DNA of 64,000 bases from Rhodococcus spelaei (GTDB lineage Bacteria; Actinomycetota; Actinomycetes; Mycobacteriales; Mycobacteriaceae): positions 310,001-374,000 of the forward strand of contig NZ_VIGH01000003.1 of the NCBI RefSeq assembly GCF_006704125.1, read 5' to 3'. Positions 30,440-64,000 of this stretch are shown here, one piece after another (within the stretch, counting starts at the first letter, position 1; the number at the start of each line of letters is the position of its first letter). The notes under the pieces were generated by a model. The model searched no databases. It was not told the DNA's origin and was given only the letters and a program-made list of their open reading frames with translations. The translations under genes and the position numbers were made by a program.

Positions 30440-30510
30440 GCGCTGCGCGCCCGTGCGCGCCGTTTACCCCAACTGGGGTGCACAGCGCTCACAGTGCCGA
30501 AGGCGCCTAC
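30436..30510. terminator. Palindromic element joining two convergent stop codons
   Basis: GTAGGCGC (30436-30443) and GCGCCTAC (30503-30510) are perfect outer arms containing the TAG stops of dgt (plus) and the dipeptidase (minus). Inside, 30453-30492 forms a second imperfect hairpin around TACCCC-AAC-TGGGGT. The inner part is closely related to 62814-62853. Probably a bidirectional terminator. Confidence 0.7.
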
Positions 30511-60949: not shown

Positions 60950-61687
60950 GTGAACGTCGAACCCCGGATTCAGGCCAAGCTGCTCGACCTCGCCGCGGTC
61001 GACACCGAGCTGACGAGGATCGCGCACCGCCGCCGCACGCTGCCTGAGCAGGAGGAGCTCGCGCGCCTCGAGTCCGATCAGGTGGGCCGCAAGGATGCCG
61101 CCGTCGCCGTGCAGATCGTCCTCGACGACCTCGACCGCGACATCAAGAAGCTCGAGGGCGAGGTCGACGCCGTCCGCAAGCGCGAGGAGCGCGACCGGAA
61201 GATGCTCGAGTCCGGGACGGTGGCCGCCAAGGCCCTCACCGAACTCGAGCACGAGCTCGGCAGCCTCGCCCGCAGGCAGGGTGTGCTCGAGGACGAACTG
61301 CTCGAGGTGATGGAGCGTCGCGAGGCCACCCAGGCCGACTACGACCACGCGGGCGGGCAGCTCAGCCAGATCGACGATGCGCTGATCGACGCGACCCGTC
61401 GCCGCGACGACGCGGTGGCCGACATCGACGCCGCGCAGCAGCGGTGCGAGACCGACCGGGCCGCGCTGGTCGGGGAGTTCCCCGCCGACCTGCTCGCCGT
61501 CTACGACCGCCAGCGGTCGGGCGGCGGGGTCGGCGCGGCACTGCTGCAGGCCCGCCGGTGCGGAGCCTGCCGGATCGAGATCGACCGCGGCGAGATCGCC
61601 CGGATCGCCGCGACCGCCGCGGACACGGTCGTCCGCTGCCCCGAGTGCAGCGCAATCATGGTGCGTACCAAGGAGTCCGGTCTGTGA
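60950..61687 (+). CDS. Coiled-coil zinc ribbon protein (Rv2229c-like)
   Basis: A 245-residue protein. Residues 1-180 form a long antiparallel coiled coil of charged heptads, and the C-terminus holds a C4 zinc ribbon: CGACRIEI and CPECSAIM. This is the CT398/DUF164 type, thought to bind RNA or to be involved in flagellar/secretion systems elsewhere. GTG 60950 has AGGAG about eleven bases upstream. A 139-base gap with an imperfect hairpin (GGGAACCA / TGGTTCCC) precedes it. Stop overlaps the RNase H start. Confidence 0.88.
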   Translation: MNVEPRIQAKLLDLAAVDTELTRIAHRRRTLPEQEELARLESDQVGRKDAAVAVQIVLDDLDRDIKKLEGEVDAVRKREERDRKMLESGTVAAKALTELEHELGSLARRQGVLEDELLEVMERREATQADYDHAGGQLSQIDDALIDATRRRDDAVADIDAAQQRCETDRAALVGEFPADLLAVYDRQRSGGGVGAALLQARRCGACRIEIDRGEIARIAATAADTVVRCPECSAIMVRTKESGL

Positions 61688-62796
61688 GTTCCGCCGCGAG
61701 CGTGATCGTCGAGGCGGACGGCGGCTCGCGCGGTAACCCCGGCCCGGCCGGCTACGGCGCGGTCGTGTTCGACGCCACCGACCGGGCGGTGCTGGCCGAG
61801 CGCAACGAGGACATCGGGATCGCGACCAACAACGTCGCCGAGTACCGCGGACTGATCGCCGGACTGACCGCCGCCGCCGAACTCGGCGCGCGCGCGGTGT
61901 CGGTCCGGATGGACTCCAAGCTCGTCGTCGAGCAGATGTCGGGACGCTGGAAGGTCAAGCATCCGGACATGATTCCGCTCGCCCGCCGCGCCGGGGAGTT
62001 GGCCGCGGGGTTCGACTCGGTGACCTACACCTGGATTCCGCGCGCGGAGAACTCGCACGCGGACCGGCTGGCGAACGAGGCGATGGACGGGCTCGCGCCC
62101 GCCGACCTGGCTCGGACCGCGCCCGCGACCGCCGCAGCTCCGGCTCCGGCGCAGCCGTCGGCGCCGGGTTGGACTGGCGCACTGGGCAAGCCGACCCGAC
62201 TGCTGCTGCTCCGGCACGGCCAGACCCCGCTCTCGGTGGAGCGTCGGTATTCGGGCCGCGGCAACCCGCAGCTGACCGAGCTCGGGCTCGCGCAGGCCGG
62301 CTCCGCCGCGACCCGGCTCGCCGAGCGCGGTGGCATCGCGGCCGTCGTGTCGTCGCCGCTGGGCCGGGCCCGCCAGACCGCGGCGGCGGCGGCGTCGGCG
62401 CTGGGCCTGCCGGTCACGGTGCACGATGGGCTGACCGAGACCGACTTCGGACAGTGGGAGGGTTTGACCTTCGCCGAGGCGTCCGAGCACGACCCGGACC
62501 TGCACCGTCGCTGGCTCACCGACACCTCGCTGCGCCCGCCGGGGGGCGAGAGCTTCGACGAGGTCCGCGGCCGCGTGGAGGGTGTGCGTGCCGACCTGAC
62601 CCGCGACTACCCGGGGCAGAACGTGCTGGTCGTCTCGCACGTCACGCCGATCAAGACGCTGCTGCAGTTGGCGCTCGACGTCGGGCCGTCGTTGCTGTAC
62701 CGCCTTCACCTCGATCTCGCATCGCTCTCGATCGCCGAGTTCTACCCCGATGGTGGAGCCTCGGTACGCCTGGTCAACGACACCTCGCACCTGTAG
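61684..62796 (+). CDS. Bifunctional RNase HI / histidine phosphatase (CobC-like)
   Basis: A 370-residue two-domain protein. Residues 5-140 are RNase HI with acidic residues in VEADGGSRGNPGPAGYG, NNVAEYRGLI, RMDSKLVVEQ and NSHADRLANEA. A Pro/Ala linker lies at 145-170. From 172 there is a histidine phosphatase with LLLLRHGQTPLSVERRYSG and ETDFGQWEGL. The same fusion is M. tuberculosis Rv2228c, where the phosphatase part dephosphorylates alpha-ribazole-5'-phosphate in B12 synthesis. GTG 61684 overlaps the previous stop. Followed by the repeated terminator element. Confidence 0.95.
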   Translation: MSSAASVIVEADGGSRGNPGPAGYGAVVFDATDRAVLAERNEDIGIATNNVAEYRGLIAGLTAAAELGARAVSVRMDSKLVVEQMSGRWKVKHPDMIPLARRAGELAAGFDSVTYTWIPRAENSHADRLANEAMDGLAPADLARTAPATAAAPAPAQPSAPGWTGALGKPTRLLLLRHGQTPLSVERRYSGRGNPQLTELGLAQAGSAATRLAERGGIAAVVSSPLGRARQTAAAAASALGLPVTVHDGLTETDFGQWEGLTFAEASEHDPDLHRRWLTDTSLRPPGGESFDEVRGRVEGVRADLTRDYPGQNVLVVSHVTPIKTLLQLALDVGPSLLYRLHLDLASLSIAEFYPDGGASVRLVNDTSHL

Positions 62797-62853
62797 GGGC
62801 GGCTTCGCCGCCCGTGCGCGCGGTTTACCCCGGTTGGGGTACAAATCGCGCAC
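62797..62853. terminator. Double hairpin element after RNase H gene
   Basis: A 7-bp stem GGGCGGC/GCCGCCC with TTC loop starts at the stop codon. It is followed by 62814-62853, whose outer arms GTGCGCG/CGCGCAC pair and whose centre is TTTACCCC/TTGGGGT. The second part is about 70 percent identical to 30453-30492. Probable terminator. Confidence 0.7.
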
Positions 62854-62881
62854 AGTCGCGGAGCGCCATTTTTAGCAGGAG

Positions 62882-62887
62882 TAACAT
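62882..62887 (+). promoter_or_regulatory. -10 element (TAACAT) of leader peptide
   Basis: TAACAT ends seven bases before the GTG of the leader peptide, giving a leaderless uORF. Confidence 0.6.
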
Positions 62888-62894
62888 CTCTCGG

Positions 62895-62966
62895 GTGAAC
62901 TCGCTGCTGACCAGTCGACGCTATGTCGACAACTGTCTGCAGTCGAGCGCTGTCTGTATGCGCTGA
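62895..62966 (+). CDS. Cysteine-containing leader peptide (uORF, 23 aa)
   Basis: A 23-codon frame VNSLLTSRRYVDNCLQSSAVCMR. It matches the short actinobacterial leader peptides found before sulfur genes, whose core is LTxRxxVDLxxxSSAxC: basic start, RRYVD, then SSAVC. Cysteines are at positions 14 and 21. A TAACAT element puts the transcript start on or next to the GTG. It lies 107 bases before a cystine transporter, so ribosome progress at the Cys codons could control that gene in response to charged tRNA-Cys. Confidence 0.8.
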   Translation: MNSLLTSRRYVDNCLQSSAVCMR

Positions 62967-63017
62967 CCCCCGGCCACCCGTCGCCGGACGTCCCCCGTCA
63001 GCCATCCTCGCGCACCC

Positions 63018-63036
63018 CACGCTCACCTCGAGCGTG
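63018..63036 (+). promoter_or_regulatory. Hairpin between leader peptide and transporter
   Basis: CACGCTC-ACCTC-GAGCGTG, a perfect 7-bp stem, lies about 50 bases after the leader stop. It could be the attenuator or an anti-sequestor hairpin; the AAAGG ribosome site of the transporter is at 63059-63063. Confidence 0.45.
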
Positions 63037-63073
63037 CCTGCTGCTGCGCCCCCGAAGTGAAAGGCCCGCATCC

Positions 63074-64000
63074 ATGTCGGCCCCCACCGCCGCTCGTCGG
63101 CGCCTGCCCGCCTGGGCAACCTCGTTCGGCACCCAGATCGTCATCGGCCTCGTCGCCGGAGTCCTGATCGGACTGCTCGCCCGCTCCATGCCCAAGGCCG
63201 ACGACGGCAACCCGAACTGGCTCGCGAGCACACTCACCACAGTCGGATCGAGCTACGTCGCACTGCTCACCGTCGCGGTGATCCCGCTCGTGTTCACCGC
63301 GATCGTCAGCTCCATCGCGAACCTGCGTCAGGTCGCCAACGCCGCCCGCCTCGCCGTCCAGACCCTGCTGTGGTTCGCGATCACGGCCTTCGTCGCCGTC
63401 GTCATCGGGATCGCGGTCGGCCTGGTGATGCATCCCGGTTCGAACACCACCGTCGACGCCGGCGCGGCGGCCGCGCCGAAGAGCTCGGGCTCCTGGTGGG
63501 CGTTCCTCACCGGACTGGTGCCGCAGAACTTCCTCGCACTCGGAGCCAAGACCACGGTGACCGCCGGCGACGTCGTCGGGGACAAGGTGACCGCGCTGAC
63601 CGGCACCACCTCGCTCAGCTTCAACGTGCTGCAGTTGCTGGTCATCGCCATCGCGATCGGTATCGCCGCGCTCAAGGTCGGGGAGAAGGCGGAGCCGTTC
63701 CTCAAGCTCAACGCGTCGCTGCTCGCGATCGTGCAGAAGGTGCTGTGGTGGATCATCCGGATCGCTCCGATCGGTACCGCGGCGCTGATCGGCAAGGCCG
63801 TCGCCACCTACGGCTGGGACGCGATCGGCCAGCTCGGCTGGTTCACCGCCGCGATCTACATCGGCCTGGCCCTGGTCTTCCTCGTCGTCTACCCGATTCT
63901 GATTCGCGCGCACGGCCTTTCGGTGCGCAGGTTCTTCTCCGGGGTGTGGCCCGCGACCCAGCTCGGTTTCGTGTCGCGCTCTTCGATCGGCACCCTGCCG
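63074..64000 (+). CDS. tcyP: L-cystine transporter TcyP-like, DAACS family (partial)
   Basis: 309 codons reach the window end without a stop. Hydrophobic segments follow the DAACS cation:dicarboxylate symporter fold. Blocks YVALLTVAVIPLVFTAIVSSI, AIAIGIAALKVGEKAEPFL and FFSGVWPATQLGFVSRSSIGTLP resemble E. coli TcyP/YdjN (there TSRSS), rather than the STSSSxATLP of dicarboxylate carriers. It would take up cystine with Na+ or H+. The cysteine leader peptide upstream supports a sulfur role. ATG 63074 has AAAGG about ten bases upstream. Confidence 0.85.
   Translation, partial: MSAPTAARRRLPAWATSFGTQIVIGLVAGVLIGLLARSMPKADDGNPNWLASTLTTVGSSYVALLTVAVIPLVFTAIVSSIANLRQVANAARLAVQTLLWFAITAFVAVVIGIAVGLVMHPGSNTTVDAGAAAAPKSSGSWWAFLTGLVPQNFLALGAKTTVTAGDVVGDKVTALTGTTSLSFNVLQLLVIAIAIGIAALKVGEKAEPFLKLNASLLAIVQKVLWWIIRIAPIGTAALIGKAVATYGWDAIGQLGWFTAAIYIGLALVFLVVYPILIRAHGLSVRRFFSGVWPATQLGFVSRSSIGTLP

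Follow-up and report, generated by a model that had tools for sequence, protein, structure and literature searches.

A 23-codon frame located 5' of an SDF-family symporter gene is most likely a cysteine-responsive attenuator, and we put the probability that it is a leaderless leader-peptide attenuator coupling this gene to cysteine supply at roughly three in four. The frame lies close to the end of the window, the whole stretch of 64,000 nucleotides that was analysed, and to judge from its peptide it appears to be a known kind of regulator, belonging to the actinobacterial leader class. The unexpected feature is a codon-locked motif cysteine (TGT), which is common to single-Cys and poly-Cys leaders. 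The features of the region are as follows.

62882-62887, + strand: -10 box TAACAT, 7 nt 5' of the GTG
62895-62966, + strand: leader peptide frame VNSLLTSRRYVDNCLQSSAVCMR*, 23 codons, GTG start, leaderless type; kept in 75 of 106 family orthologues
62934-62936, + strand: Cys codon 14, TGT, clade-specific; Cys here in 21 of 75 leaders, spelled TGT in 21 of 21
62955-62957, + strand: Cys codon 21, TGT, the invariant motif Cys and proposed stall site
62962-63002, + strand: predicted helix holding the leader stop codon; 62962-62967 pairs with 62997-63002 in the minimum-energy fold
63018-63024/63030-63036, + strand: perfect hairpin in the spacer, 7 bp, 5-nt loop, z -4.8, T-run absent on the 3' side
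63059-63064, + strand: GAAAGG, Shine-Dalgarno-like, belonging to the transporter gene; the relatives compared have this hexamer or a variant at the equivalent place
63074-64000 (cut by the window end), + strand: SDF-family symporter, PF00375, 341.8 bits against 27.9; full gene 481 aa (L125:1075-2520)

The leader frame, its promoter and its distribution

The sequence-only reading had described a GTG frame of 23 codons with cysteines at positions 14 and 21, and this frame was read at 62895-62966 with TGT at both cysteines. A 20-codon stretch precedes the TGT of Cys21, which is followed by two sense codons and the stop. The same reading had named TAACAT as the -10 element; the box is present 7 nt 5' of the GTG and is conserved, but position 62882 belongs to the box and is not the start of the frame. 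The position of TAACAT would put the transcription start at or beside the GTG, and the arrangement TAACAT-N7-GTG occurred once in the 64-kb window against 0.03 expected from shuffles. A generic sigma-70 scan detected no promoter at the leader, so it is the conserved -10 box that places the start site. Among the 75 leaders, a TANNNT ending 6-8 nt 5' of the start codon was found in 73 (55 at exactly 7; the exceptions are L096 and L120), against 3.7 of 75 in shuffled upstream DNA, and the start codons of these 73 were GTG in 71 and ATG in 2. This pattern strongly suggests that the transcripts of the 75 leaders are leaderless.

The leader frame also forms the 3' end of a longer open frame (62169-62966; TTG start, 265 codons) that runs over part of the upstream gene in a different frame and is attributed to high G+C. 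The upstream gene (61444-62796, same strand) resembles a fusion of RNase H and histidine-phosphatase domains, as recognised by eye. Directly 5' of the leader promoter lies a palindromic interspersed repeat (62789-62868, REP-like) with 47 other matches in the genome and another within the window at 30448-30495; the relative L014 has a 79% match directly 5' of its leader.

The transporter was present in all six same-genus genomes, and of 301 family genomes 216 gave an SDF match at E <=0.001. As family orthologues we took the 106 matches with E <=7e-70, and their upstream DNA was read. The leader was found in 75 and was absent in 31. It precedes every orthologue of genera g1, g6, g10, g23 and g25 (66/66), and elsewhere in the family it was found in g30 (6/14), g3 (2/23) and g22 (1/1, weak), with 0/1 in both g4 and g17. 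The upstream DNA of four paralogue loci (L121-L124) contained no leader. The phylum search gave matches at E <=1e-40 in 29 of 396 genomes; 8 of 12 orthologues outside the family (E <1e-100) carried the leader, and none of the 16 that were read among the 19 more distant SDF matches listed in that search. Sought 5' of the transporter in relatives, as the sequence-only reading had foreseen, the leader proved to be conserved there: it was present in 25 of the best 80 named-set matches listed, including Rhodococcus/Prescottella (17/17), Jiangella (2/2), Cellulosimicrobium (2/2) and, in divergent form, Blastococcus (2/2), one Nakamurella and one unclassified Actinomycetales. No leader was seen in the other 55 of these 80, which are mostly Micrococcaceae and include one Tsukamurella. 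The pairing of leader and transporter therefore appears to be old, yet lineage-dependent.

Two further loci were read. In Nonomuraea gerenzanensis (L171), a transporter-linked leader ...WLVERLHIDLCRLHGSLCR* lies 5' of an SDF gene that is 58% identical. The same SDF subfamily occurs on Ensifer plasmids at ~65% identity, and the single copy that was read (L170, Ensifer adhaerens plasmid) showed no leader; the subfamily has perhaps moved between phyla.

The recurrence of the peptide 5' of 75 of 106 family orthologues marks the frame as more than a chance product. It is short, it is open far upstream and its score falls under a curated cut-off, all of which would be expected of a chance open frame without function, but conservation at the amino-acid level in many genera and at the same place makes such an origin extremely improbable.

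Conservation of the peptide and its sulfur-gene context

The consensus of the 75 leaders is L-L-T-[S/C]-R-R-Y-V-D-x-x-L-Q-A-S-A-x-C. Its first R is spelled CGA, CGG, CGC, CGT or AGG, and its A is spelled GCG, GCC, GCT or GCA; selection appears to act on the leader peptide, most codons drifting synonymously while the peptide is fixed. A looser core, R[R/L][H/Y]VDLxRxxSAxC, is class-wide, with a profile match at E <=0.001 in 178 of 246 class genomes. Against the NCBIfam model NF042934 (cis_reg_atten, 'putative leader peptide'), the window peptide aligned over the full length, positions 1-19 of 19, and scored 15.4 bits with a cut-off of 27; it differs in having N-C instead of L-x after VD and in ending with MR. 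Because it scores below the cut-off and carries the core R[R/L][H/Y]VD...S-A-x-C that is common to leaders passing it, we consider the window leader a probable diverged relative of NF042934 rather than a certified member. Transporter-linked leaders from two other lineages scored 28.0 (trimmed peptide) and 33.1 bits against this model, and one from genus g6 scored 23.3.

Four further leaders in the same genome lie 5' of SsuD-like, nitrite/sulfite-reductase-like, flavin reductase and short monooxygenase-like genes. All four genes score under the curated cut-offs of their best models, the SsuD-like alkanesulfonate monooxygenase reaching 460.4 bits with a cut-off of 510. Two of these leaders passed NF042934 (40.7 and 37.0 bits) and one was narrowly short (25.0), and the leader of the reductase-like gene, which contains a CSCCC run, scored 26.7 bits and passed NF042936 (52.2 versus 45), a family of Cys-rich leaders whose name comes from M. 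smegmatis. Poly-Cys and single-Cys actinobacterial leaders thus have a common core motif, which is found in the poly-Cys leader at this genome's cys locus. Class-wide, the genes 3' of the leaders included a cysteine synthase and a 2-oxoacid oxidoreductase (both passing), a MoaD-type small protein, an SsuE-like FMN reductase and a solute-binding protein, together with SDF symporters and sulfite reductases recognised by eye, and the same core motif was found 5' of SsuD-like, sulfite-reductase-like and CysM genes. Assignment to the leaderless-type Cys leaders of actinobacterial sulfur genes, made earlier from the window alone, thus agrees with the common core motif and the sulfur-gene context in relatives.

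Cys-rich leaderless leaders of mycobacteria were reportedly described by Canestrari in 2020. The mycobacterial Cys-rich leaders (NF042936 Ms4527A and NF042933 Ms5788A), as presented in the accessible part of Shell 2015 (PMC4633059), resemble the window leader in the motif RRHVD, a Cys near the stop and sulfur genes on the 3' side, and in the leaderless type that the window leader probably has. In our counts, the motif Cys was fixed as TGT in both kinds. The window leader differs from the mycobacterial poly-Cys leaders in having two separated Cys codons and no Cys run, an SDF symporter as the target, and no predicted Shine-Dalgarno switch.

The codon of the motif cysteine

The motif Cys was TGT in 213 of 213 non-duplicate leaders having Cys there. 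This set consists of 75 transporter leaders, 108 class-wide leaders, 27 poly-Cys leaders and 5 new ones from the phylum orthologues, minus 2 duplicates, and TGT was found in 75/75, 108/108 and 27/27 of the first three, the last being those of the 30 poly-Cys leaders read that reach the position. In the named-set leaders, which partly overlap the 213, the count was 25/25. The class-wide set is made up of best-scoring matches and includes near-duplicates; 113 loci were read, of which 3 had no motif (L189, L196 and L201) and 2 had no Cys at the position. In two loci with the core motif, the fixed position is a stop (L263) or Arg (L274).

Other Cys codons of the class-wide leaders were TGC in 55 and TGT in 8 (n=63), and those of the downstream frames, which were crudely picked and some of them wrong, were TGC in 183 and TGT in 31 (n=214). 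In the poly-Cys leaders, the neighbouring Cys codons were mixed: TGC 14/TGT 16 at position 9, TGC 2/TGT 19 at position 11, TGC 8/TGT 16 at position 12 and TGC 12/TGT 2 at position 16. Two-codon residues served as controls in the same 110 leaders and gave CAC 88/CAT 18 for His and GAC 67/GAT 43 for Asp. Fisher's test, a statistic that ignores relatedness, gave p 1e-36 when the motif Cys was set against the remaining Cys codons of its leaders, and p 1e-5 within the poly-Cys set alone. The leader searches and regexes ran on translated peptide, which left the choice of Cys codon free. Search bias was considered as the source of the TGT result and was rejected, given the peptide-level searching and the drift of other two-codon residues.

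The open-licence literature, outside which most subscription journals lie, yielded no mention of a fixed TGT at the motif Cys. The Cys attenuator of Rhodobacterales is described in the accessible part of its report as UGC-dominated (PMC8632094), so the TGT lock is not general to Cys attenuators. That system, the cysS attenuator uORFC-8-2, is like the window leader in placing Cys codons in a short upstream frame and differs in its tandem Cys, the UGC preference and an intrinsic terminator, as far as the same text describes it (PMC8632094).

Both cysteine codons of the window leader had been proposed as sensors. The proposal fits Cys21, whose position is Cys in 75 of 75 transporter leaders, but fits Cys14 less well, Cys being found there in 21 of 75 only. 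On these counts Cys21 would be the better candidate sensor, and the codon of Cys14 is a possible second sensor codon in the clade of the window. Bacterial tRNA-Cys has the anticodon GCA, and UGU is thus decoded by wobble.

A sharper form of the attenuator explanation, with which its odds overlap, is nascent-peptide arrest, in which R[R/L][H/Y]VDLxRxxSAx in the exit tunnel would pause the ribosome at the invariant Cys codon and cysteine or Cys-tRNA would be sensed by peptide and codon jointly, not by codon hunger alone. In TnaC-type arrest peptides, a conserved nascent peptide directly precedes a critical codon close to the stop, and TnaC senses tryptophan. In sequence, the window leader is alike in having a conserved peptide before a near-stop codon. 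The 13 residues before the Cys are kept at the amino-acid level class-wide, which hungry codons alone would not need, and the Cys codon always ends in T, whereas its neighbours drift. With these 13 conserved residues in the exit tunnel at UGU(21), a contribution of the peptide to pausing is plausible. However, the peptide conservation could reflect common descent of short leaders, and divergent leaders such as those of Blastococcus keep the TGT and little else, so that we hold arrest as a tentative reading with odds of well under one half. Equally speculative at present is the wider proposal of one ancient family of codon-locked arrest leaders, in which the pause would need wobble-read UGU, not UGC, at one fixed position, and through which a whole sulfur network, the SDF symporter subfamily included, would be wired to Cys-tRNA or cysteine.

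Spacer, mode of control and the transporter

The leader stop and the transporter ATG are separated by 107 nt (62967-63073). A spacer of this length with a perfect hairpin had been noted before, and both are present; the hairpin, however, is not conserved as one structure, as group alignments gave no common fold. An inner hairpin (62970-62974/62983-62987) inside the stop-codon helix had z -0.9 alone and was not significant. Hairpins at or after the leader stop recur in many relatives without a single conserved structure; the z-scores of the stop-proximal stretch vary by sequence group, with group means from -2.4 to +0.7, and the mean z from stop to start was -1.07 versus -0.14 in the upstream control. 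A search of Rfam returned a single weak, irrelevant match. In three g6 genomes (L058, L073 and L075), the end of the leader frame and the stop-codon hairpin are tandemly repeated two or three times 5' of the transporter.

No terminator-like site was detected in 62780-63120, and the leader region differs from a classical transcription attenuator in having no intrinsic terminator between leader and gene. The spacers are rich in C and poor in G (C 41%, G 24% versus C 37%, G 30% in the upstream control), a composition that would suit Rho. Rho was suggested for cys operons by Seliverstov 2005 (PMC1262725). According to the accessible part of that paper, the candidate cys-operon leaders place Cys codons close to the stop and have a C-rich spacer but no conserved terminator, as here, and differ in carrying Cys runs and in preceding cys operons or cbs, not a symporter (PMC1262725). 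Most leaders in the present sets have a single motif Cys and no run.

Translational attenuation has been reported for mycobacterial poly-Cys leaders; applied here, a stalled ribosome would free a sequestered Shine-Dalgarno sequence of the next gene. A short predicted hairpin covers the Shine-Dalgarno sequence and ATG of the transporter gene (z -1.5), and the core motif is common to the poly-Cys leader of the genome's cys locus, which would both fit this scheme. Such a switch was modelled by comparing access with the ribosome at the Cys codon and at the stop in 72 leaders of 7 sequence groups, and the model gave it no clear support: of the 72, 8 showed higher access with the ribosome at the Cys codon and another 8 lower access, the rest being within 0.05, with no predicted change in any of the groups. 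The spacer length, moreover, varies from 72 to 296 nt across the leaders. Translational attenuation of this kind is thus unlikely, at about the level of a minor alternative. Still less probable is a translated leaderless mini-gene that aids expression, or a constitutive element, whose Cys codons sense nothing; the variable spacing to the gene and the lack of a conserved switch structure agree with it, but the TGT is fixed globally and related leaders are strictly associated with sulfur genes.

In the preferred reading, that of a cysteine-responsive attenuator, transcription would begin at the GTG and the ribosome would read 20 codons, the last 13 of them conserved in kind (RRYVD..LQ.SAV), before reaching the UGU Cys codon, which leaves two sense codons to the stop. 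A shortage of Cys-tRNA would hold the ribosome at UGU(21) and, in the clade of the window, perhaps at the UGU of codon 14 too. The waiting ribosome would alter the fate of the C-rich, hairpin-bearing spacer and lead to more transporter, the last step being Rho-dependent termination or translational control. We infer the stalling, the direction of its effect and the sulfur amino acid that the transporter would carry. Ribosome occupancy was reported on a mycobacterial Cys-rich small ORF before cysA2 in the accessible text of PMC4633059.

The gene on the 3' side had been called TcyP-like; its product is an SDF symporter (PF00375) that does not group with TcyP of E. coli. Among E. coli proteins TcyP matches it best (31.4%, 160 bits), just ahead of GltP (155 bits), and has the GCA, SRSS and EPxxDMGRT motifs in common with it; for the orthologues L146, L147 and L171, however, GltP outscores TcyP. 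The tree placed E. coli TcyP and three actinobacterial genes (L161-L163) in one clade (100/100) and the window transporter with six others in a separate clade (99/99), with a long-branch warning on its relation to the TcyP clade. No leader was seen at L161-L163. Annotated public homologues are named 'dicarboxylate/amino acid:cation symporter', and in the PDB it matches aspartate and glutamate transporters best. Given the position outside the TcyP clade and the names of the homologues, it is mainly the leader that would point to cystine, and the leader may be the best hint that the transporter imports a sulfur amino acid.

In summary, single-Cys and poly-Cys actinobacterial leaders are joined by one core motif and one codon-locked Cys, and the leader would tie a widespread transporter subfamily to the cysteine regulon and so predict its substrate class. 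The TGT lock predicts an effect of one synonymous base, TGT to TGC, which would make it a rare instance of a synonymous third position conserved for regulatory reasons throughout a bacterial class. If codon-locked arrest is true, the sulfur network would respond to Cys-tRNA or cysteine and the SDF subfamily would import a sulfur amino acid.
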